A model generated the notes under the pieces. That model saw nothing but the letters and a program-made list of their open reading frames with translations. It was not told the origin of the DNA and ran no database searches. From Natrialba magadii ATCC 43099 (lineage in GTDB: Archaea; Halobacteriota; Halobacteria; Halobacteriales; Natrialbaceae), in the NCBI RefSeq assembly GCF_000025625.1, contig NC_013922.1:1054001-1118000 (forward strand): a stretch of DNA of 64,000 bases, given 5' to 3'. A program made the position numbers and the translations under genes. Positions 1 to 47,085 of this stretch are shown here, piece by piece; position 1 is the stretch's first letter, and the number at the start of each line of letters is the position of its first letter.

Positions 1-449
1 AACTCTCCTCGCGCGAACTCACGACCGTACTCGAGGAGCAGTACGACATCGACGTCTCTCACGTCACCGTCAGCGAGTCCATTCGCCGGATGCGTGACGA
101 GGGCGTGTTCCGTGAGGCAATCATCCCGAACGAGGAGTACTACATTTTTGCGCTCTTCGAGTTCAAGTTCAACGCGGAGAACTTCGCTGACCGCTGGCGG
201 GACGCGATGGAGCACATCAAGCAGGACAAGCACACGCTGTTTTTCTTCCTCTCGGACGGCGAGTACCAGTGGAAGACGGTGATGATGTTCCGCAACCGCG
301 AGGAGGTCTCGCGGTGGATTCACGACTGTTACACGGAGTACGGTGATGTAATCGCGAACGTGCGCAACTCGGCGGTGCACAACGTCCTCAAGTTCAAGAC
401 GGATCCGCGAATCTACGAGGATCTGGGAGAGGAGCGAGCTGACGAGTAA
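1..449 (+). CDS. Winged-helix DNA-binding protein, 5'-truncated
   Basis: The reading frame is open from base 3, so the true start lies before the window. The visible N-terminal part (LTTVLEEQYDIDVSHVTVSE, then SIRRMRDEG) has the look of a winged helix-turn-helix with its recognition helix, and it is followed by about 110 residues rich in aromatic and acidic residues (FALFEFKFNAENF, FFFLSDGEYQWK). That arrangement suits a haloarchaeal one-component regulator with an Lrp/AsnC-like effector part, but I cannot name the ligand. It ends 15 bases before the convergent fatty-acid gene. The family assignment is inference from the HTH only. Confidence 0.7.
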   Translation, partial: LSSRELTTVLEEQYDIDVSHVTVSESIRRMRDEGVFREAIIPNEEYYIFALFEFKFNAENFADRWRDAMEHIKQDKHTLFFFLSDGEYQWKTVMMFRNREEVSRWIHDCYTEYGDVIANVRNSAVHNVLKFKTDPRIYEDLGEERADE

Positions 450-464
450 CAAGTAACGAGTCCG

Positions 465-2423
465 TTACTTTCCGTCGAACTCAGGCTCGCGATCCTCCGC
501 GAACGCAGCCGTCCCCTCACGCATGTCCTCGGTCGTAAACAGGAGTCCAAAGCCCTGGCTCTCCATCGCGAGCGCAGCCTCCAGACTCGCGTCCTGGCCC
601 TCGTTCATCACCTTCTTTGCGACCTTGAGGCCGATCGGCGGGCCGGTTCGCAAGTCGTCGAGGAACTCGCCGACCACGTCGTCGAACTCCTCGCGAGCGA
701 CCGCGCGGTTGACCAGCCCCCACTGCTCGGCGCGGTCGGCGTCGATGTGGTTCCCACGGAAGACGAGTTCCTTTGCCCGCGTTTCGCCGAGTACGCGCAT
801 AAGGCGCTGCGTGCCGCCCCCGCCGGGAATCAGTCCGAGACCAATCTCTGGCGCGCCGAACGACGAGCGCTCGGTCGCAAGGCGCAGGTCACAGGCAAGT
901 GCGAGCTCGAGTCCAGCCCCAAGGCAGTAGCCGTCGATCTTGGCCACGACGGGCCGCGGGAAGTCGTTGACCGTCTCGAAGGCGGGCGTCACGTCCATCA
1001 TGTCAGTTGGCTCCGTCCCGCCGAAGCCACCGATGTCCGCACCGGCGCTGAACGCGCGGTCGCCGACGCCCTCGATGGTGACACAGCGCACGTCGTCGGT
1101 GTCGACCGTCGAGAACAGGTCGTCGACCTCCTCGAGTAGGTCGCCTGAGATGGCGTTCATCCGGGAGGGGCGGTCGAGTTCGAGTGCGAGCACGCCGTCC
1201 GCGAGGTCGACATTGATGTTGTGGTACGAATCCAGCGCGCCGTCGTCGGTGTCGTACTCGTAGAAGCCCTGTCCGGCGTCTTCGCCGGTTTTGTCCTCCT
1301 CGACGAGGTCCTCGAGATAGGAGTGTGGTTCGAATCGGTCTGCGCCGGTCTCCTCGTGGAGCGTTTCGAGTTTCCCGAGAACGGTGTCCAGTCCGATCTT
1401 GTCCGCGCGGCGGCAGATCCCCTCAGGGAAGCCAAGGCCAAGCTGGACGCCGGTGTCGACCTCCTCGGGTTTGGCGACGCCCTCGCCGACGAGGAACGCG
1501 GCGCGGTTGACCATGCGCGCTTCGACGCGGAGCCAGTCGAAGTCGCCCGCGTCCTCGGGCTGGTAGTCCGCGCCGTCGCCGTTTGCGTAGTCGTAGAATC
1601 CCTTCCCGGTCTTCTGGCCGAGTTCCTCGGCCTCGACTTTCTCCTCGGTGATCGGCGGGATCGGGCTTCCGCCCTCCTTGCGGACGTGGTAACCCACGTC
1701 GATCCCGGTCAGGTCAGCGAGTTCGAACGGTCCCATCGGGTAGCCGCGCTCGTGAGCCATCGTGGCGTCGGCCCCTCGGATGGTCGCCTCGCCCTCCGAG
1801 ACCATGAACGCGGGCTCGCCGCCGAACGGACCGACGATGGTGTTGACGACGAAACCGCGGACGTCCTTGCGGACGTAGATCGGCGTCTTGTCGATCGACT
1901 CGACCCACTCGTAGCCGGCGTCAGCGACCTCGTCCGTCGTCTCCTGACCGTAGATGACCTCGACCAGGTCCATTTTCACCGGCGGATTGAAGAAGTGCAG
2001 GCCAAGCACGCGCTCGGGTGTGTCGAGGACTTCCGCGATGTCCGAAATCGGCAGGCTGGAAGTGTTCGTCGCGAGCAGCGTGTCTTCCGTCGTGAACTCC
2101 TCCAGATCGCTGAAGATGTCGTGTTTCAGTTCGAGATTTTCGGGTGCGGCCTCGATGACGAGATCCGCGTCGGCGACTGCCTCCTTCAGGTCAGTCGTCG
2201 TGTCGATCCGGCCGAGGACGGTGTCGGCCGACTCGGCGAGCAGGTCCTTCTCCTCGAGTTTCTCGAGGCTCCAGGCGATCTGCTCGTAGCCGTCGTCGAC
2301 GAGGTCCTGCTCGATGTCGCGCATCGTGACCTCGTAGCCGCCCATGGCGGTGACTTCGGTGATGCCGTGTCCCATGTTCCCCGCGCCGAGGACGGTGACG
2401 CGGTCGATGCTGTCGAATGACAT
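465..2423 (-). CDS. Bifunctional 3-hydroxyacyl-CoA dehydrogenase / enoyl-CoA hydratase
   Basis: Catalyses two beta-oxidation steps: hydration of enoyl-CoA and NAD-dependent oxidation of 3-hydroxyacyl-CoA. The start is placed at MSFDSIDRV because the Rossmann motif VLGAGNMGHG follows at once; the open frame extends 17 codons further upstream. The dehydrogenase part comes first, with the catalytic-region motif LHFFNPP and two C-terminal-domain signatures (TGKGFYDY and GQGFYEY). The crotonase domain forms the last ~250 residues, with FSAGADIGGF and CLGAGLELALACDLRLA contributing the oxyanion hole. This order, dehydrogenase then hydratase, is the archaeal arrangement and the reverse of bacterial FadB. 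At 652 aa it is full length. It is probably cytosolic fatty-acid degradation or hydroxybutyrate metabolism. The adjacent kinase-like gene is on the same strand. Confidence 0.93.
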   Translation of the reverse strand: MSFDSIDRVTVLGAGNMGHGITEVTAMGGYEVTMRDIEQDLVDDGYEQIAWSLEKLEEKDLLAESADTVLGRIDTTTDLKEAVADADLVIEAAPENLELKHDIFSDLEEFTTEDTLLATNTSSLPISDIAEVLDTPERVLGLHFFNPPVKMDLVEVIYGQETTDEVADAGYEWVESIDKTPIYVRKDVRGFVVNTIVGPFGGEPAFMVSEGEATIRGADATMAHERGYPMGPFELADLTGIDVGYHVRKEGGSPIPPITEEKVEAEELGQKTGKGFYDYANGDGADYQPEDAGDFDWLRVEARMVNRAAFLVGEGVAKPEEVDTGVQLGLGFPEGICRRADKIGLDTVLGKLETLHEETGADRFEPHSYLEDLVEEDKTGEDAGQGFYEYDTDDGALDSYHNINVDLADGVLALELDRPSRMNAISGDLLEEVDDLFSTVDTDDVRCVTIEGVGDRAFSAGADIGGFGGTEPTDMMDVTPAFETVNDFPRPVVAKIDGYCLGAGLELALACDLRLATERSSFGAPEIGLGLIPGGGGTQRLMRVLGETRAKELVFRGNHIDADRAEQWGLVNRAVAREEFDDVVGEFLDDLRTGPPIGLKVAKKVMNEGQDASLEAALAMESQGFGLLFTTEDMREGTAAFAEDREPEFDGK

Positions 2424-40058: not shown

Positions 40059-41363
40059 ATGCAGGACAGAACCTACACTGCCGACGCCGAGCCGGGCGAC
40101 GACGCGACCGTCGCCGGCTGGGTGCACGAGATCCGTGACCTCGGCGGCATCGCCTTCCTGATTCTCCGAGACGCAACTGGAAAGATTCAGGTCAAGTTCG
40201 AGAAAGACGAGATGGACGACGAGCTCGTCGACACCGGCCTTGGCGTCTCCCGCGAGAGCGTGGTGAGCGTCACCGGCACCGTCGAGGAAGAGCCTCGCGC
40301 CCCGACGGGCGTCGAGGTCACCCCCGAATCGGTCGACGTCATCTCTGCCGCGGACCCCGAACTGCCACTCGACCCATCGGGCAAGGTCGACGCCGACCTC
40401 TCGACCCGCCTCGACAACCGCACGCTCGACCTGCGCAAAGACGAGGTCCAGGCGGTCTTCGAGATTCGCGCCGAGATCCTGCGCGCGGTCCGCGAGCAGT
40501 TCCGCGAGTTCTACTGTACCGAGATCAACACGCCGAAAATCGTCGCGACGGGTACCGAGGGCGGTACCGAGCTGTTCCCAATCACGTACTTCGGCGAGGA
40601 GGCGTTCATGAACCAGTCCCCACAGCTGTTCAAGCAGCTCATCGCGGGCTCCAACGTCGAGCGCGTCTTCGAGATCGGACCGATCTTCCGCGCCGAGGAG
40701 CACAACACGCCACGCCACCTGAACGAGGCAACCTCGATCGACTTCGAGGGCGCCTTCTGCGACCAGAACGACGCCATGGACGTCGCCGAGGGCATCGTGA
40801 AGGCAGCCTACGAGGCAGTTACCGAGAACTGCAGCGAGGAACTCGAGGCGCTCGGCCTCGAAGAGGAGTTCGAGGTTCCGGAAGGTGACTTCCCACGGCT
40901 CAGCTACGAGGAGGCAATCGAGCGCATCAACGCGACGGGCGAACTCGACGAGCAGCTCGTCTGGGGCGACGACCTGCCGACCGAGGGCGAGAAGGCACTC
41001 GGCGACGACGTCGGCGGCCACTACTTCATTACGGATTGGCCGAGCGAGATCAAGCCGTTCTACATCAAGGACCACGACGACGACGAGCAGCTCTCGACCG
41101 GCTTCGACCTGATGCACCCACGGATGGAGCTCGTTTCGGGTGGCCAGCGTGAGCACCGCCACGAGCACCTGATCGAAGGCTTCGAGCAGCAGGGTCTCGA
41201 CCCCGACCAGTTCGAGTACTACACGAAGATGTTCAAGTACGGCATGCCGCCCCACGCCGGCTTCGGGCTGGGTGGCGAGCGCCTGATCATGACGATTCTC
41301 GGACTGGACAACATCCGGGAGGCTGTGCTCTTCCCGCGTGATCGTCAACGTCTGAGTCCGTAG
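40059..41363 (+). CDS. aspS: Aspartyl-tRNA synthetase
   Basis: 434-aa class IIb archaeal-type AspRS. N-terminal OB-fold anticodon-binding domain ([20 protein letters not shown]), then class II catalytic core: motif 2 [20 protein letters not shown], and motif 3 [20 protein letters not shown] followed by the C terminus [10 protein letters not shown]. It lacks the large bacterial insertion domain. TATA-like GCTTAAGT ~27 bases before the ATG. Oddity: the last nine codons recur twice downstream with only synonymous changes. Whether it is discriminating for tRNA-Asp cannot be judged here. Confidence 0.96.
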
Positions 41364-41515
41364 ACGAAGACGTTGAGAGCTAGCAAGTCGTTGCGAGCGT
41401 CAACGAGTAACGTCTTGCGAGATCGCCAGCGACTGAGTCCGTAGCACGAGGTCTCTGGGAGCAAGCGAGGCGAGTGAAACGAGTCTCGCGTGACCGCCAG
41501 CGGCTGAGCCCGTAA
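41337..41515 (+). repeat. Triplicated 3' end of aspS (candidate attachment-site remnants)
   Basis: The codons for RDRQRLSP plus stop occur at 41337-41363 (the real gene end), 41418-41444 and 41489-41515. Pairwise identities are 21-23 of 27 bases, and every difference is at a third codon position, including the stop (TAG, TAG, TAA). The spacers (54 and 44 bases) are only loosely alike. Such displaced, synonymously diverged gene ends are what repeated site-specific integration at a gene's 3' end would leave. No integrase gene is nearby. Confidence 0.85.
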
Positions 41516-41524
41516 CCAGTATAA

Positions 41525-41559
41525 CGGCCCTCACCACAGGAGGGCCGCAGCTCCATTTT
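41525..41559 (+). terminator. Hairpin-plus-U terminator after the last aspS-end copy
   Basis: Perfect 8-bp stem CGGCCCTC/GAGGGCCG (41525-41532, 41540-41547) with a 7-base loop, then TTTTT about eight bases later. It follows the third, most distal copy of the aspS end, as would be expected if that copy was the original gene end. Confidence 0.6.
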
Positions 41560-41605
41560 TCGATGCAGTCCGACTCGGTAGCGAGGAGTGCGGCCGACGC
41601 CGTCG

Positions 41606-41668
41606 TCACCACCAACCACCGTCATCATCGTCATCGTCGTCATCGTCGTCGCCACCATCACCACAGCC
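41606..41668. repeat. CAT/CGT trinucleotide-rich stretch
   Basis: Imperfect runs of CATCGT/CGTCAT/CACCAT units in the 310 bases between the aspS terminator and pantoate kinase. No gene is called here; a long open frame across it encodes a His/Arg-rich peptide unlike a real protein. Confidence 0.5.
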
Positions 41669-41826
41669 CTCCGAACCGTCGGCCGCAGCGCCCAGCGGCG
41701 CGACCGTCTCGAATACTCCTTCCGGTCGCGAACGGGAAGTGTGATGAGAACGACAAAACGCCAGCAGCAGCGGTCGTAGTCGCCCAAATCCGCAACGTTA
41801 TACTGCCCGAGTCGCAAGGGTCGCCA

Positions 41827-42666
41827 ATGCGCGAGGAGGCGACGGCGTTCGTACCAGGGCACATAACGGGCTTTTTCAGCGCTCATCCGGCCGACGATCC
41901 GACGATAGCCGGATCGCGGGGGGCAGGGCTGACGCTGACCGACGGCGTGACGGTGACAGTCGAACCGGTAGCCGAGGAGGCCTCGGAGTCGATCGTCATT
42001 CTCGACGGGGAAATGATCGAAATCGAACCGGTCGACATCGTCCTCGAAGCGCTCGACGTGGTCGCTCGCGTCGAGGCGGAGTCGGACCTACCGCTCGGGG
42101 CTGGGTTCGGTATTTCGGGTGCGATGGCGCTCGGAACCGCACTCGCGGCGAACGCCGTCTTCGGCTGCAGGCTCTCTCGAAACGAACTCGTCACAATTGC
42201 TCACGGCGCGGAAGTACAGGCTGGGACTGGACTCGGAGATGTCGTTGCACAGGCCTGTGGTGGCGTCCCGATTCGACTCGAACCGGGTGGGCCACAGGAG
42301 AACAAACTCGATGCGATTCCTGCGCGGGCGCGAGTCGAGTACGTTTCGTTCGGCGAATTGTCGACGGCTGACGTGCTCGCGGGCGATACAGACCAGTTGA
42401 CGGCTGCAGGGAAAGAGGCGCTCTCGCGTGTCGTCGAGGAGCCGACCCTGCTGTCGTTCATGTACGCCTCGCGCCTGTTCACGCGCGAAGCAGGGCTGTT
42501 GACTGACCAGGTTGCGAAGACGATCGGCGACGTGACCGACGTCAACGGTCAGGCCTCGATGGCGATGCTTGGGGAGACCGTCTTCGCGCTCGGAACCGGA
42601 CTGTCTGATGCTGGCTACGATCCGTCGGTCTGTGCAACCCATCCCGCAGGTGCGCTGTTGCGATAG
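41827..42666 (+). CDS. Pantoate kinase (archaeal CoA biosynthesis)
   Basis: 279-aa GHMP-superfamily kinase that phosphorylates pantoate to 4-phosphopantoate, the first of the two archaeal-specific CoA steps. Signature N terminus: AFVPGHITGFFSAHPADDPT, with SRGAGLTLTDGVTV; the ATP loop is SDLPLGAGFGISGAMALGTA; C-terminal GQASMAMLGETVFALG. TATA-like GTTATACTG ~27 bases before the ATG. Its partner enzyme is at 46046, so the pair is interrupted here by the DUF1508-repeat gene. Confidence 0.93.
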   Translation: MREEATAFVPGHITGFFSAHPADDPTIAGSRGAGLTLTDGVTVTVEPVAEEASESIVILDGEMIEIEPVDIVLEALDVVARVEAESDLPLGAGFGISGAMALGTALAANAVFGCRLSRNELVTIAHGAEVQAGTGLGDVVAQACGGVPIRLEPGGPQENKLDAIPARARVEYVSFGELSTADVLAGDTDQLTAAGKEALSRVVEEPTLLSFMYASRLFTREAGLLTDQVAKTIGDVTDVNGQASMAMLGETVFALGTGLSDAGYDPSVCATHPAGALLR

Positions 42667-43014
42667 CGGTCGTCATTAGTACACGCAACACTGGAATCGT
42701 CTCGCCGGTTCGTTCCTATCACGTGTGCTGGGACACCACTCGACTGTCAGATTAGTTTGCTGACTTACTTTTACTTCCCAAGATAGTCATAAGACAGACA
42801 CGTTCGTCAACAAGGTGGGCTGGTATTACTTCAAGCAGCCCATTCGTTTCGTAGATGGCTGTTTGACCGGTACTGGCGTCCGAACAGCACGCCGGCTCTA
42901 AAAATCAAAGTTGAAACCGTTGTCGGCCTCACCAAATCATTCATACATATGTCTGTTCTGCCAGGTGGCCGGAGGTTTATTATGATGGGTTGCAGTTCTC
43001 CGCTCACATTTCGA
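42667..43014. other. 348-bp intergenic region before the DUF1508-repeat gene
   Basis: Somewhat A/T-rich. Contains the small inverted repeat TGGGCTG/CAGCCCA (42816-42842) and, near its end, the A/T-rich candidate promoter GTTTATTATG (~36 bases before the ATG). No tRNA-like or coding feature is convincing. Confidence 0.45.
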
Positions 43015-45954
43015 ATGTCTTCACCAAGTGACGTTCACCACAAACTGTACCGGCTGTACGAACGCTACGTCGGCGAACCCGACTCGACGAAGGATGTCTA
43101 CGGCTACTGGCTGTTCATCGTCGGCTACGTCGTTGCTGCGGCGGCCGTATTCACGTTCGTTGCCGGCTATGCGGGGGATGCAGATACGTACGGGCTAATC
43201 AGGGCCTCGGGTGTGACCGCGGCGACAGGGCTTGCACTCTGCCTGTTCGGGATCGTTCTCATGCTTCCAGTTCGAAGACGAGGAATTCAGGCGAGTGTGT
43301 TGGGACTGCTGATTTCGTTTGGTGGCGTTGCGTTCTTCGCGTGGGCGTATCCGTACAATTGGCGAGAACTCGGCACGGACTACAGCGTTCACGTCATCCT
43401 CGTCTACACGGTCGGGATTGGGATCATCGCGGGTGTTACTGCGCTCGTTCCCGTTCTGACCGGCCGGAAAGGGATGTTCGTCGAGGAGGAAGGAGAAACG
43501 GAAGATCCGCCGATTCTCACCGGAGATGCACTGGAGGGTGCACAGTTCGCTGTCTTCCGTGACGACAACGGCGACTGGAAGTGGAACGTTCTCCATCTCG
43601 AAGCGCTGGCGACGAGCAACGAGAGCGCCGTGACTCGACCGAAGGCCACCGAGGGAATTGAACGCGTCCAGTCCCAGATCAGTTCAGCTGGACTGATGGA
43701 GCTCACCACGTCCGCGTTCCGGCTCTACGAGGACAGAGATGGGAGCTGGCAGTGGACGCTCGCCCGAGACGACGGCAGCGTCGTCGGCACCTGTGCTGGC
43801 GAGTTTAGCGAGCGCGATGGGGCTGAGGAGTCCGTGAGCTTCCTCAAAGATCGTGGACCAACGGCAGACGTGATCGAAATCGACGGCGCGGCGTTCACGT
43901 ACGCCGAAGAACGCGACCAGTGGCACTGGCAACTGGTGGACGACGAGCGGTTGCCGCTGGCTTCGGGTGCGAACGGCCACGGCACCCAGGAGAACGCCGA
44001 GACGGCCGCACGCACGTTCGCCGAGCGGTTCGACCAGGCACGCGTACTCGACCTCGAACACGTTGGTGCCGAACTCTACGACCGAACGGACGACAGCGGC
44101 GCGAACGGCTGGTCCTGGCGCTTCGTCGACGAACAGGATTCACCGCTTGCCGCCGCAACCGACGCGTACGACGCCCGGCGCGACGCAGAGGAAGCTGCGG
44201 ATGCACTGCTTTCGGAACTCGGCAGTGCGTCGGTGACGGTGGCTGGCGAACCAACCTACGAACGCTACCAGACCGGCGACCAGTGGCGCTGGCGGCTGGT
44301 CGGCGAGTCCGAACACGTTGTCGCCCAAAGTCCAAGCGACGCCGAAACCGAGGCCGACGCGACTCACGAGACCGACACCTTCGGAGCACACGCCCGCGAC
44401 GCCGACGTCGTCGAAATCGAGGACGCGGAGTACGAGGTCTATCCGACCGACAGCCAGGAACTAACCTACGAGGAGGGCGACGCACTGCCTGCAACGTCCG
44501 ACGAGCAGCAGATGGTGTCGACCGACGGCGGCACGGCGACGGCCGAGGGGGAGGACGGCGCAGACGACGGCCGCTCCTGGCACTGGCGTCTCGTCACCGA
44601 AGACCGCGACGTGATCGCCGGAAGCACCGAACCCCACTACGACGCCGAGACGGCGACCGAAGCGATCCAGCGCGTTCGCGAGCAAGCGAGCGAAGCCGAA
44701 CTCATCGAGTTCGAGGAGGCTGCCTTCCAGGTCTACGAAGCCGATGACGGCGAGTGGCGCTGGCGGCTCATCGACGAGGACGGCAACGTCCTCGCAGACA
44801 GCGGTGCAGAACACACCTCCCGCGGCGAGGCCGCAGAAGCGATGATGACGCTCAAAGAGCAGGCGCCGGACGCCGAACTGCTCGAAATCGAAACGGCAGC
44901 CTTCGAGCTCTTCGTCAACGAGGACAACGAATGGGGCTGGCGACTTATCGACGAAGCCGGTCAGCTCGTCGCCGAAGATCCGTCGACGCACCCAACCCGC
45001 GGTGCCGCGCGCAAGGCGATGAACCGACTCCTCGAGTACCTCGACTCTGACGTGCGGACCATGGAAGATGCGATCTTCCAGCCGTACGCAGCGGACGACT
45101 GGCACTGGCGGTTCGTCCTGCCAACCGGGGAAACGGTCGCCGTTGCCGGTGACACCTACGCGACACGCGACGAACTCGTCGATGCCATCCCTGCCGTTCG
45201 CGACGCAGCCGAATCCGCACAGGACTACACGATCGGCAACGTCACGATCCAGCTCTACCGCAGCGGTGATTGGAGCTTCCGACTCCTCGACCGCGATCGC
45301 AAGGAGATTGCCGACGCGACTGACACCTACGCGGAACGCGACGCCGCACTCGAGATCGTCGAAGATCTCAAAGCACACGCCGACGATGCCCCGATCTTCA
45401 CGATCGAGGACGCCGCGATCCGCGTCACTGACGCTGACACGGACGACGGCTGGACATGGGACCTCGTCGACCGCGAGCGCACCGTCCTCGCAAGCGCCGT
45501 CGACACGGTGGCGAGCCGCGAGGAACTTCACGAGGAGATCGAAACTGTCCGCCAGCTCGCACCGATGGCCGGCCGTGTCGACTTCGACGTTGCCTCGTTC
45601 GAACTCGTCGCCGACGAGGACGACCGCTGGCAGTGGCGGCTCATCGACGAGGACGGCCACACGGTCGCCACCGGCTCCGAATCACACGAATCGAGCGAGG
45701 CCGCTCGTGAGGCACTCGAGAACGTCCGCGAACTGATCGACGCAGCGAGCATCCTCGAGATCGACAGCGTCTCCTTCGAACTCCATACCGCGGAGGACGA
45801 GAACGAGGATGGCTGGGTCTGGCGGCTGGTCGACGAGTACGGCTCGACGATGGCCCAGAGCACGCAGGTTTACGAGTCCCGGACGGACGCCCGTGAGGCG
45901 ATGAACAACGTGAAAGCGGAAGCCCCAGAGGGCTGGATCACGTTCACGGAGTAA
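43015..45954 (+). CDS. Membrane protein with about thirteen DUF1508 (YegP-like) repeats
   Basis: 979 aa. Residues ~30-148 hold four transmembrane helices (for example GYVVAAAAVFTFVAGYAG, VILVYTVGIGIIAGVTALV), with the tail then in the cytoplasm. From ~171 to the end I count thirteen ~57-65-residue repeats, each of the form F.(V/L)(Y/F)..(D)..(W)(R/Q/H)W(R/Q)L(I/V)(D).(D/E)...(V/L)A, a turn, then a helix (R..A..A...(V/L)K..A). Repeat 6 has a long acidic insert. Single or paired DUF1508 domains (HVO_2922/YegP) are usual; thirteen is extreme. Function unknown; possibly a multivalent binding scaffold at the membrane. It sits between the two CoA-pathway genes. Confidence 0.88.
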   Translation: MSSPSDVHHKLYRLYERYVGEPDSTKDVYGYWLFIVGYVVAAAAVFTFVAGYAGDADTYGLIRASGVTAATGLALCLFGIVLMLPVRRRGIQASVLGLLISFGGVAFFAWAYPYNWRELGTDYSVHVILVYTVGIGIIAGVTALVPVLTGRKGMFVEEEGETEDPPILTGDALEGAQFAVFRDDNGDWKWNVLHLEALATSNESAVTRPKATEGIERVQSQISSAGLMELTTSAFRLYEDRDGSWQWTLARDDGSVVGTCAGEFSERDGAEESVSFLKDRGPTADVIEIDGAAFTYAEERDQWHWQLVDDERLPLASGANGHGTQENAETAARTFAERFDQARVLDLEHVGAELYDRTDDSGANGWSWRFVDEQDSPLAAATDAYDARRDAEEAADALLSELGSASVTVAGEPTYERYQTGDQWRWRLVGESEHVVAQSPSDAETEADATHETDTFGAHARDADVVEIEDAEYEVYPTDSQELTYEEGDALPATSDEQQMVSTDGGTATAEGEDGADDGRSWHWRLVTEDRDVIAGSTEPHYDAETATEAIQRVREQASEAELIEFEEAAFQVYEADDGEWRWRLIDEDGNVLADSGAEHTSRGEAAEAMMTLKEQAPDAELLEIETAAFELFVNEDNEWGWRLIDEAGQLVAEDPSTHPTRGAARKAMNRLLEYLDSDVRTMEDAIFQPYAADDWHWRFVLPTGETVAVAGDTYATRDELVDAIPAVRDAAESAQDYTIGNVTIQLYRSGDWSFRLLDRDRKEIADATDTYAERDAALEIVEDLKAHADDAPIFTIEDAAIRVTDADTDDGWTWDLVDRERTVLASAVDTVASREELHEEIETVRQLAPMAGRVDFDVASFELVADEDDRWQWRLIDEDGHTVATGSESHESSEAAREALENVRELIDAASILEIDSVSFELHTAEDENEDGWVWRLVDEYGSTMAQSTQVYESRTDAREAMNNVKAEAPEGWITFTE

Positions 45955-45993
45955 TCGCACTGTAGCACGGTGCCGAACAACTGAGTACGGCCC

Positions 45994-46023
45994 CTGTTTT
46001 TTGCAGATCGGTCTCCTTTTTAT
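45994..46023 (+). promoter_or_regulatory. T-tract terminator followed by TATA-like box
   Basis: TTTTTT (about 45995-46000) ends the DUF1508-repeat transcript. CCTTTTTATCG at ~46013-46023 is ~28 bases before the GTG of the phosphopantothenate synthetase gene, so that gene appears to have its own leaderless promoter despite the close upstream gene. Confidence 0.45.
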
Positions 46024-46045
46024 CGACGCACTCGAGTCTTCGGTC

Positions 46046-46822
46046 GTGAGCGAGTACGACACCGTCTCGGCAGATGTCCAACACGAGGAGGAGATACCGG
46101 AGGACCATCCCAGATATCAGGATCTGATTACCCGCCACCGGATCGAGAACGGTGTCGAGAAAGGGATTACGCACTTGCAGGGGATGCACGCCGAGGGACG
46201 CGGGAGCGCGTTCGACTACTTGTTGGGCGAGGAGACGATTCCGAGCGCCGACGCGGCAGAGCGGGCGGCGGCAGCGCACCTTCTGCTGGCCGAGCAGCCG
46301 GTGTTGTCGATCAACGGGAACGTCGCCGCACTGGTGCCCGGCGAGATGGTCGACCTGGCCGACGCCGTAGATGCTGATCTCGAGGTGAATCTCTTCAACC
46401 GGACGCCGGAGCGAATCGAAGCGATCGCCGAGCACCTGCGCGAGCACGGTGCCGAGGGCGTGAAAGGACTGACTGCGGACGCTCGCATCCCGAATCTTGA
46501 CCACCAGCGGGCGAAAGTCGACGCTGACGGCATCTACGCGGCAGATGTAGTGGTCGTCCCCCTCGAAGACGGCGACCGAGCGGAGGCCCTCCAAGAGATG
46601 GAGAAGACCGAAATCGTGATCGACCTGAATCCGCTCTCGCGCTCGCCGCAGGTCGCCGAGATTCCGATCGTCGACAACATCATTCGAGCGGTGCCGAACA
46701 TGACGGCACACGCAGAGGAGCTTGCGACGGCGAGCGAGGCGGAACTGCGGGCGATTATCGAGGAGTTCGACCGCGAGCACGCGCTGGAGGCGGCCGAGGA
46801 ACGGATCCGGAACGGTGTCTAG
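46046..46822 (+). CDS. 4-phosphopantoate--beta-alanine ligase (archaeal phosphopantothenate synthetase)
   Basis: 258 aa, ATP-dependent ligation of 4-phosphopantoate with beta-alanine to give 4'-phosphopantothenate. Family signatures: HPRYQDLITRHRIENGVEKG, GMHAEGRGSAFDYLLGE, LSINGNVAALVPGEMVDLA, VEVNLF-type strand (DLEVNLFNRTPERIE), and the C-terminal IVIDLNPLSRSPQVAEIPIV, NIIRAVPNMTAHAEEL. Start at GTG 46046 (SEYDTVSADV), supported by the TATA spacing. Partner of the pantoate kinase at 41827. Confidence 0.94.
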   Translation: MSEYDTVSADVQHEEEIPEDHPRYQDLITRHRIENGVEKGITHLQGMHAEGRGSAFDYLLGEETIPSADAAERAAAAHLLLAEQPVLSINGNVAALVPGEMVDLADAVDADLEVNLFNRTPERIEAIAEHLREHGAEGVKGLTADARIPNLDHQRAKVDADGIYAADVVVVPLEDGDRAEALQEMEKTEIVIDLNPLSRSPQVAEIPIVDNIIRAVPNMTAHAEELATASEAELRAIIEEFDREHALEAAEERIRNGV

Positions 46823-46887
46823 ACGGGCAGTCGTGTCGTTTCCATCTTTTGCGTCGCTGTCGCTACACAACTGAGTCTACGGCTTCG

Positions 46888-47085
46888 CTACAGACGTGGG
46901 TCGGTGTCGAACGTATCCATCACCAGCGTCTGTACCGGGTGTATAAGCGAAAGTCCCCAGAGGGCCAGTGACACATATACAAACCCAAAGAACGGACCAC
47001 TGTTTTCGGGCAGAGACTGCAGCGCCAAGATAGCGGCTGTCAGCGCACCTATGCCTAAACAGACCGATTGTGCGTATTTCTCCAC
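46888..47085 (-). CDS. 65-aa two-helix membrane protein (GTG start)
   Basis: MEKYAQSVCLGIGALTAAIL followed by a second span around FFGFVYVSLALWGLSLI. Start is GTG at 47085. A TATA-like GTATTTATG on the minus strand ~27 bases upstream supports it. No family recognised; base composition is slightly more A/T-rich than its neighbours. Faces the phosphopantothenate synthetase gene convergently. Confidence 0.55.
   Translation of the reverse strand: MEKYAQSVCLGIGALTAAILALQSLPENSGPFFGFVYVSLALWGLSLIHPVQTLVMDTFDTDPRL

Follow-up and report, generated by a model that had tools for sequence, protein, structure and literature searches.

The window analysed here is a stretch of 64,000 nucleotides from Natrialba magadii ATCC 43099 (contig NC_013922.1, positions 1,054,001 to 1,118,000 of the forward strand). 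It carries a gene for a 979-residue protein with an N-terminal membrane domain followed by thirteen DUF1508 units, which we call X13; an in-frame ATG upstream, at 42949, is a possible alternative start. X13 is flanked by two genes of coenzyme A synthesis. The family match of the upstream one begins at residue 51 of its frame, and its true start is uncertain. An RNA family scan of positions 41000-47000 gave zero matches. The features are as follows, with pairings as predicted from the structural models discussed below.

41680..42666, + strand: upstream neighbour, pantoate kinase-like (183 bits, below the equivalog cut-off of 380)
43015..45954, + strand: X13, DUF7139-(DUF1508)x13 protein, open reading frame of 979 residues
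43042..43473, + strand: DUF7139 membrane domain, residues 10-153 (Pfam match and hydrophobic helices)
43543..43701, + strand: repeat 1, residues 177-229; predicted partner, repeat 13
43714..43878, + strand: repeat 2, residues 234-288; predicted partner, repeat 12
43888..44052, + strand: repeat 3, residues 292-346; predicted partner, repeat 11
44065..44244, + strand: repeat 4, residues 351-410; predicted partner, repeat 10 (from the Haloferax ortholog model)
44254..44409, + strand: repeat 5, residues 414-465; predicted partner, repeat 9
44425..44709, + strand: repeat 6, residues 471-565, insert-bearing; predicted partner, repeat 8 (from the Haloferax ortholog model)
44452..44565, + strand: lineage-variable insert in repeat 6, residues 480-517 (pLDDT < 50; missing in locus L069 by spacing)
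44719..44886, + strand: repeat 7, residues 569-624, predicted unpaired tip; the most conserved and most HVO_2922-like unit
44899..45063, + strand: repeat 8, residues 629-683 (model of the window protein; pairing from the Haloferax ortholog)
45073..45234, + strand: repeat 9, residues 687-740 (model of the window protein)
45241..45405, + strand: repeat 10, residues 743-797 (model of the window protein; pairing from the Haloferax ortholog)
45412..45582, + strand: repeat 11, residues 800-856 (model of the window protein)
45592..45762, + strand: repeat 12, residues 860-916 (model of the window protein)
45772..45948, + strand: repeat 13, residues 920-978, with the C-terminal strand predicted to lie by repeat 1
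46058..46822, + strand: downstream neighbour, 4-phosphopantoate--beta-alanine ligase (309.8 bits, cut-off 300)

The membrane domain is a clear match to Pfam DUF7139 (PF23600; 141.1 bits, cut-off 30), and the array matches DUF1508 (PF07411) at 235.1 bits (cut-off 22), with eight stretches each significant alone. The NCBIfam model HVO_2922 (NF041908) scores 271.3 bits summed over 12 stretches (equivalog cut-off 90); however, a DUF7139-bearing protein of 979 residues is not the small single-domain protein typical of that equivalog. Four hydrophobic helices, near residues 33-51, 66-84, 91-109 and 127-145, all lie N-terminal to the units. The loop after helix 2 has two K/R and zero D/E, and that after helix 1 has two D/E and zero K/R. 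By the positive-inside rule, this charge pattern suggests an N-in, C-in topology with both ends of the protein in the cytoplasm. The soluble part is acidic (200 D/E versus 63 K/R).

A scan for the motif W.[WF] after residue 155 finds exactly 13 cores (residues 188, 245, 303, 366, 424, 522, 581, 640, 696, 753, 813, 872 and 934), and an HMM built from the units likewise finds 13 domains in the window protein. Profile-profile comparison relates each unit position to all others with a probability of at least 86. The first-pass annotation, made from the letters of the window, had counted thirteen mutually diverged DUF1508 copies after four membrane helices. These points hold: the units are scored neither as another domain nor as far fewer than thirteen, and their alignment shows strong divergence among them. 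Cores are spaced 56-63 residues apart, with a single exception of 98 residues that results from the low-confidence insert inside repeat 6. A super-repeat of two or five units was considered and rejected; profile similarity has no parity effect, and its weak rise at offset 5 is driven by conserved units.

X13 is present in several haloarchaeal families. Strong matches occur in 93 of 125 genomes of the window's own family (Natrialbaceae), where full-length orthologs are 66-76% identical, in 22 of 146 of a second family and in 7 of 9 of a third. Across the class, 36 of 145 sampled genomes carry a copy that is matched along its length; in one of the 36, the gene is split by a frameshift. Named relatives include Natrialba, Natrinema, Natronorubrum, Halovivax, Halomarina, Salinarchaeum and Haloferax marinum. 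A plasmid search returned zero records covering 80% of the query.

The number of units is nearly constant. Among 168 relative open reading frames of at least 750 residues, a set in which many of the loci are duplicate entries for a genome already counted, the HMM called 13 units in 139 and 14 in 22; three frames gave 12, a single one, on a short contig, gave 11, and three gave 5. The 14-unit calls, where inspected, reflect a split repeat 6; the 5-unit calls come from five-unit proteins whose open frame is long. Each of 17 further proteins, taken from the other families, has 13 units. For alignment we retained proteins of 800 residues or more that have at least 11 units: 183 including the reference, which collapsed to 135 at 98.5% identity. 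All thirteen cores are present in 132 of these 135; given the filter, this shows constancy at thirteen for long members only. In a comparison of twelve proteins, the window's with eleven diverged ones, the best match in another protein occupies the same position for 141 of the 149 units. This orthology of unit positions rules out recent slippage as the origin of the repeats. With unit number fixed and repeats matching their same-position counterparts across species, the first-pass annotation was right to call this an old expansion, one that, judged by these comparisons, is older than the haloarchaeal families compared and has a unit number that is old and fixed among long members.

Exceptions to the thirteen-unit frame are a four-unit gene (L204, discussed below) and the genes at L060/L127 and at L139, which each occupy two frames. 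The gene of Natrinema thermotolerans DSM 11552 (L127:5914-8989 and L060) has its frameshift near repeats 5/6. The Haloferax marinum copy (L125:6001-8793, + strand) is 73% identical to that of an uncultured Halobacteriales MAG (L128) and 48% identical to the window's. It does not lie beside coenzyme A genes, and was perhaps acquired by horizontal transfer.

We modelled the array with AlphaFold in two orthologs. The first model, of the protein encoded in the window, used 45 sequences (mean pLDDT 82.9, pTM 0.56) and has a linker of low confidence at residues 152-173, following the membrane domain. The second, built to test mirror pairing, is of the Haloferax marinum ortholog (10 sequences, pLDDT 80.2, pTM 0.53; the other four models of that run were lower, at pLDDT 61-74.5). 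The two runs have some alignment rows in common. The YegP fold is found in both, with the solved structures 2k49 and 2k8e fitting at Z 14.0-14.4, and units in the first model follow the pattern strand-strand-strand-helix-short strand. A search of a viral structure library gave nothing at E <= 0.001, and its best high-probability rows were ordinary DUF1508 phage proteins.

Pairing was read from the first and last aligned residues in fits to solved structures, not from coordinates. On the first model, two-unit 2k8e covers residues 229..920, that is, repeats 2+12 (Z 14.4, 115 residues, 3.2 A). One-domain rows span 172..979 (1+13), 231..916 (2+12), 290..855 (3+11) and 411..740 (5+9), each beginning in one repeat and finishing on the strand after its mirror repeat, while repeat 7 is matched alone with its own strand (566..625). 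On the Haloferax marinum model, 2k8e covers 463..645, repeats 6+8 (Z 14.3), and 2k49 covers 350..779, repeats 4+10 (Z 14.0; 2k49 rows overhang by ~24 residues into the next repeat). Other rows in that model span 465..641 (6+8), 351..757 (4+10) and 458..690 (5+9). Taken together, the two models contain all six mirror pairs whose numbers sum to 14: 1+13, 2+12, 3+11, 4+10, 5+9 and 6+8. The array thus probably adopts a hairpin architecture in which twelve units pair i with 14-i and repeat 7 is left unpaired; its overall shape is uncertain at pTM 0.53-0.56.

The first-pass annotation had instead proposed a long multivalent scaffold. In a beads-on-a-string arrangement of this type, DUF1508 units that are separate or adjacently paired would form a flexible membrane scaffold binding many copies of a partner. 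Thirteen homologous units, an acidic soluble part and a low-confidence linker are all compatible with such a protein, and adjacent units do pair in bacterial YegP. However, neither model has an adjacent-unit pair among its two-domain matches, as judged from their ranges only, so that the pseudo-dimer of adjacent units typical of two-unit YegP proteins is not seen. The fixed number of units is also at odds with beads, which usually vary, as is the concentration of conservation in one unit. Moreover, 10 of the 36 X13 genomes seem to be without a single-domain HVO_2922-like partner (best DUF1508 E above 1e-12). We therefore consider beads on a string unlikely. Because twelve of the thirteen units are paired within the chain in both models and one is free, 'multivalent scaffold' is probably wrong; X13 resembles a stalk with a single tip more than a protein with thirteen binding sites.

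We lean, by a little, towards X13 being a membrane-anchored cytoplasmic hairpin stalk of paired units that keeps a single conserved domain, its tip, at a distance from the membrane. DUF1508/YegP units would pair in twos, with units 1-6 running out from the membrane, the chain turning at unit 7 and units 8-13 running back. Each unit i would pair with unit 14-i by exchange of the strand that follows the helix. Six YegP pseudo-dimers would in this way form a two-stranded rod whose base is closed by units 1 and 13 beside the membrane helices. From the size of a YegP domain, we estimate that such a rod is perhaps 15-20 nm long. Unit 7, unpaired at the tip, would be the working end: a conserved domain for docking, kept at a constant distance from the membrane, that could pair with the tip of a second X13 or bind a partner. 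A stalk or tether function is plausible, with about an even chance of being right; pairing or docking by the tip is a guess. Mirror pairing around a single unpaired tip would explain why the unit number is odd and fixed.

Covariation gives moderate support to mirror pairing, with a strength that depends on the test. In a first pass over 121 sequences (effective 57), MI favoured mirror pairs weakly (p 0.064 and 0.076), and DCA on the same sequences did not favour them (p 0.42 and 0.18). When the analysis was limited to the exchanged strand, the helices and the sheets, mirror pairs seemed to stand out. A focused statistic that combined these segments, picked after that segment-restricted result had been seen, was then applied to 135 sequences (effective 63.6); mirror pairing beat random pairings (p 0.00015-0.00045 over three settings), and sum 14 was the highest of thirteen sums. 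As this statistic followed from an earlier result, the unfocused whole-unit test matters more. It was positive in 32 of 32 variants, obtained by combining four subsets with two methods and four depths; p ranged between 0.0002 (MI, all sequences) and 0.25 (MI, orthologs only), and over 0.008-0.25 for orthologs alone. MI peaks also at mirror sum 19.

Conservation is uneven along the array. Mean identity over the 135 sequences is 0.78 for the tip, 0.59 for units 6/8, 0.45-0.48 for the mid-stem and 0.57 for both base pairs. A stalk that works at both its tip and its base would be expected to give this profile, in which repeat 7 is the most conserved unit; a centre of symmetry at 7.5 (sum 15) fits it as well as one at 7 (sum 14). 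A natural deletion was also found in one genome (L204:1540-2934, - strand), where a single frame encodes the membrane domain with repeats 1, 2, 12 and 13 only, still between the pantoate kinase and phosphopantothenate synthetase genes. The missing units are placed symmetrically around the tip, the kind of loss that mirror pairing would favour; this is a single case, and a symmetric loss has a 6-in-66 chance by count.

The most conserved unit is also the one nearest to a solved haloarchaeal protein. HVO_2922 (NF041908; PDB 6q2z), a single 60-residue domain unlike X13, is the closest solved sequence, and its best match is repeat 7 (profile search, E 4e-15). Its structure was solved with two chains, a point that also counts in favour of the hairpin stalk, and the window's genome has one single-domain HVO_2922-like gene. 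The tip could thus recruit single-domain HVO_2922 proteins to the membrane through a mixed YegP dimer. Against this stand the 10 X13 genomes that appear to have no such protein, and we regard recruitment of this kind as improbable.

Genomic context offers a different role. In 28 of the 36 X13 genomes, X13 lies between the pantoate kinase and phosphopantothenate synthetase genes, and in 32 of 36 no more than 7 kb separates it from one or the other; this linkage spans four families, as it might if the stalk anchored or regulated these two enzymes. However, all 11 X13-less genomes of the window's family in the 145-genome sample retain both enzymes, and in eight of them the genes are directly adjacent (156-260 bases apart, read from gene coordinates). 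X13 is found elsewhere in 4 of 36 genomes and in six second copies, with unrelated neighbours where examined and no neighbour in common among the unlinked loci examined. The gap between pantoate kinase and X13, usually a few hundred bases, also speaks against a coenzyme A accessory, which we think has only a slim chance of being correct. Since X13-less genomes keep both enzymes, X13 is not required for the coenzyme A operon; on the evidence of gene content, it is dispensable, an old passenger or partner of that operon.

The membrane domain of the predicted hairpin stalk belongs to a much wider family. DUF7139 is present in 280 of the 292 genomes of the class; eight of the 12 without it belong to one genus (family f8, genus g43), which looks like lineage loss in a haloarchaea-wide family. 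Three architectures occur, with DUF7139 joined to thirteen DUF1508 units, to five, or to a short DUF7140 C-terminus. Other DUF7139 proteins thus have five units or a small cysteine-containing C-terminal domain where X13 has its predicted thirteen-unit stalk. The window's genome contains a DUF7139-DUF7140 paralog (L088:7102-8193, + strand; G000:C1:1137140) laid out as membrane domain, low-complexity linker and small cysteine-containing C-terminal domain. Another thirteen-unit gene of this genome (L087:6666-9326, - strand) lies on a 255-kb contig; its product has one hydrophobic helix and no DUF7139 match.

DUF7139 with five DUF1508 units forms a widespread sister family in haloarchaea. Arrays are therefore not exceptional in haloarchaea, contrary to what the first-pass annotation implied, the five-unit version being common on the same membrane domain and the thirteen-unit one present in a quarter of sampled haloarchaeal genomes (36/145). 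Twelve of the thirteen five-unit loci (L071-L083) are in one frame; the last of them (L082:3111-4928, + strand) is broken into three and two units by a single in-frame stop between units 3 and 4. Unit spacing is regular apart from the linkers after unit 1, which is long (~80 residues core to core), and after unit 3, which is short. Conservation in twelve five-unit proteins is 0.65 for unit 3 versus 0.66 for unit 1, without a clear middle peak, and no neighbour is common to most of the five-unit loci examined.

Among known systems, X13 has the domain profile and fold of YegP (UPF0339/DUF1508, PF07411; E. coli YegP 2k8e and SO3888 2k49). Two-unit YegP proteins have adjacent units and no membrane domain, whereas X13 has thirteen units that are predicted to pair across the chain. 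A second resemblance is to Cis12 of the Anabaena contractile injection system. The full X13-array profile matches Anabaena All3315 (Cis12, 7b5h) in the PDB at E 4.4e-5; with a single-repeat profile, 7b5h is not listed at E up to 1. A 202-residue Cis12 piece (7b5h chain AD, residues 960-1161) scores 31.9 bits against DUF1508 (cut-off 22). On the Haloferax marinum 4+10 pair, Cis12 fits at 1.9 A over 97 residues (Z 8.9, chain residues 620..1161); on the first model, its fit is meaningless (36.7 A). The range 620..1161 would imply that Cis12's own first and last units are packed together, as read from the range and not from coordinates, so that the Cis12 arm seems to close its first DUF1508 unit onto its last. 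Alg12 of another system has a weak similar stretch (E 0.8-1).

The Cis12 extension forms a wide connector from the baseplate to the thylakoid membrane (PMC8894136), and neither 'YegP' nor 'DUF1508' occurs in the main text of that paper. Cis12 is thus, as X13 is, a long array with DUF1508 units in a membrane-reaching arm. It is a baseplate subunit without membrane helices, unlike X13, and a Pfam scan, as a sequence-profile test only, found no Cis12-type baseplate core domain in X13. No connection between X13 and an injection system was seen. Within one open-access library, we found no literature linking 'contractile injection' with YegP, DUF1508 or UPF0339. The same library yielded no role for long DUF1508 arrays, nothing on DUF7139 or COG3422 and only passing mentions of DUF1508, in keeping with the earlier statement that such arrays have no assigned function. 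Further literature consulted comprises PMC8305020, PMC12175516 and PMC8406309.

Read jointly, the haloarchaeal stalk and the injection-system arm may be two places in which the same solution arose, with long DUF1508/YegP arrays acting as a general one-chain rod of zipped mirror units with one tip; we put this at slightly less than an even chance. An array folded back on itself with one tip unit left over would have an odd number of units, as X13 (13) and its sister family (5) do. The DUF1508/YegP family is widespread and has solved structures, yet it is an orphan for which our literature search found no role. If long arrays zip into hairpin rods, there would be a concrete, testable structural role, an explanation for the fixed odd repeat number maintained across haloarchaeal families and a link to a solved machine (Cis12). 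X13, an unnamed haloarchaeal membrane protein, would also become a tractable target, with an ortholog present in a Haloferax species. If this reading is true, the orphan YegP domain would gain its first general role, as a length-setting tether.
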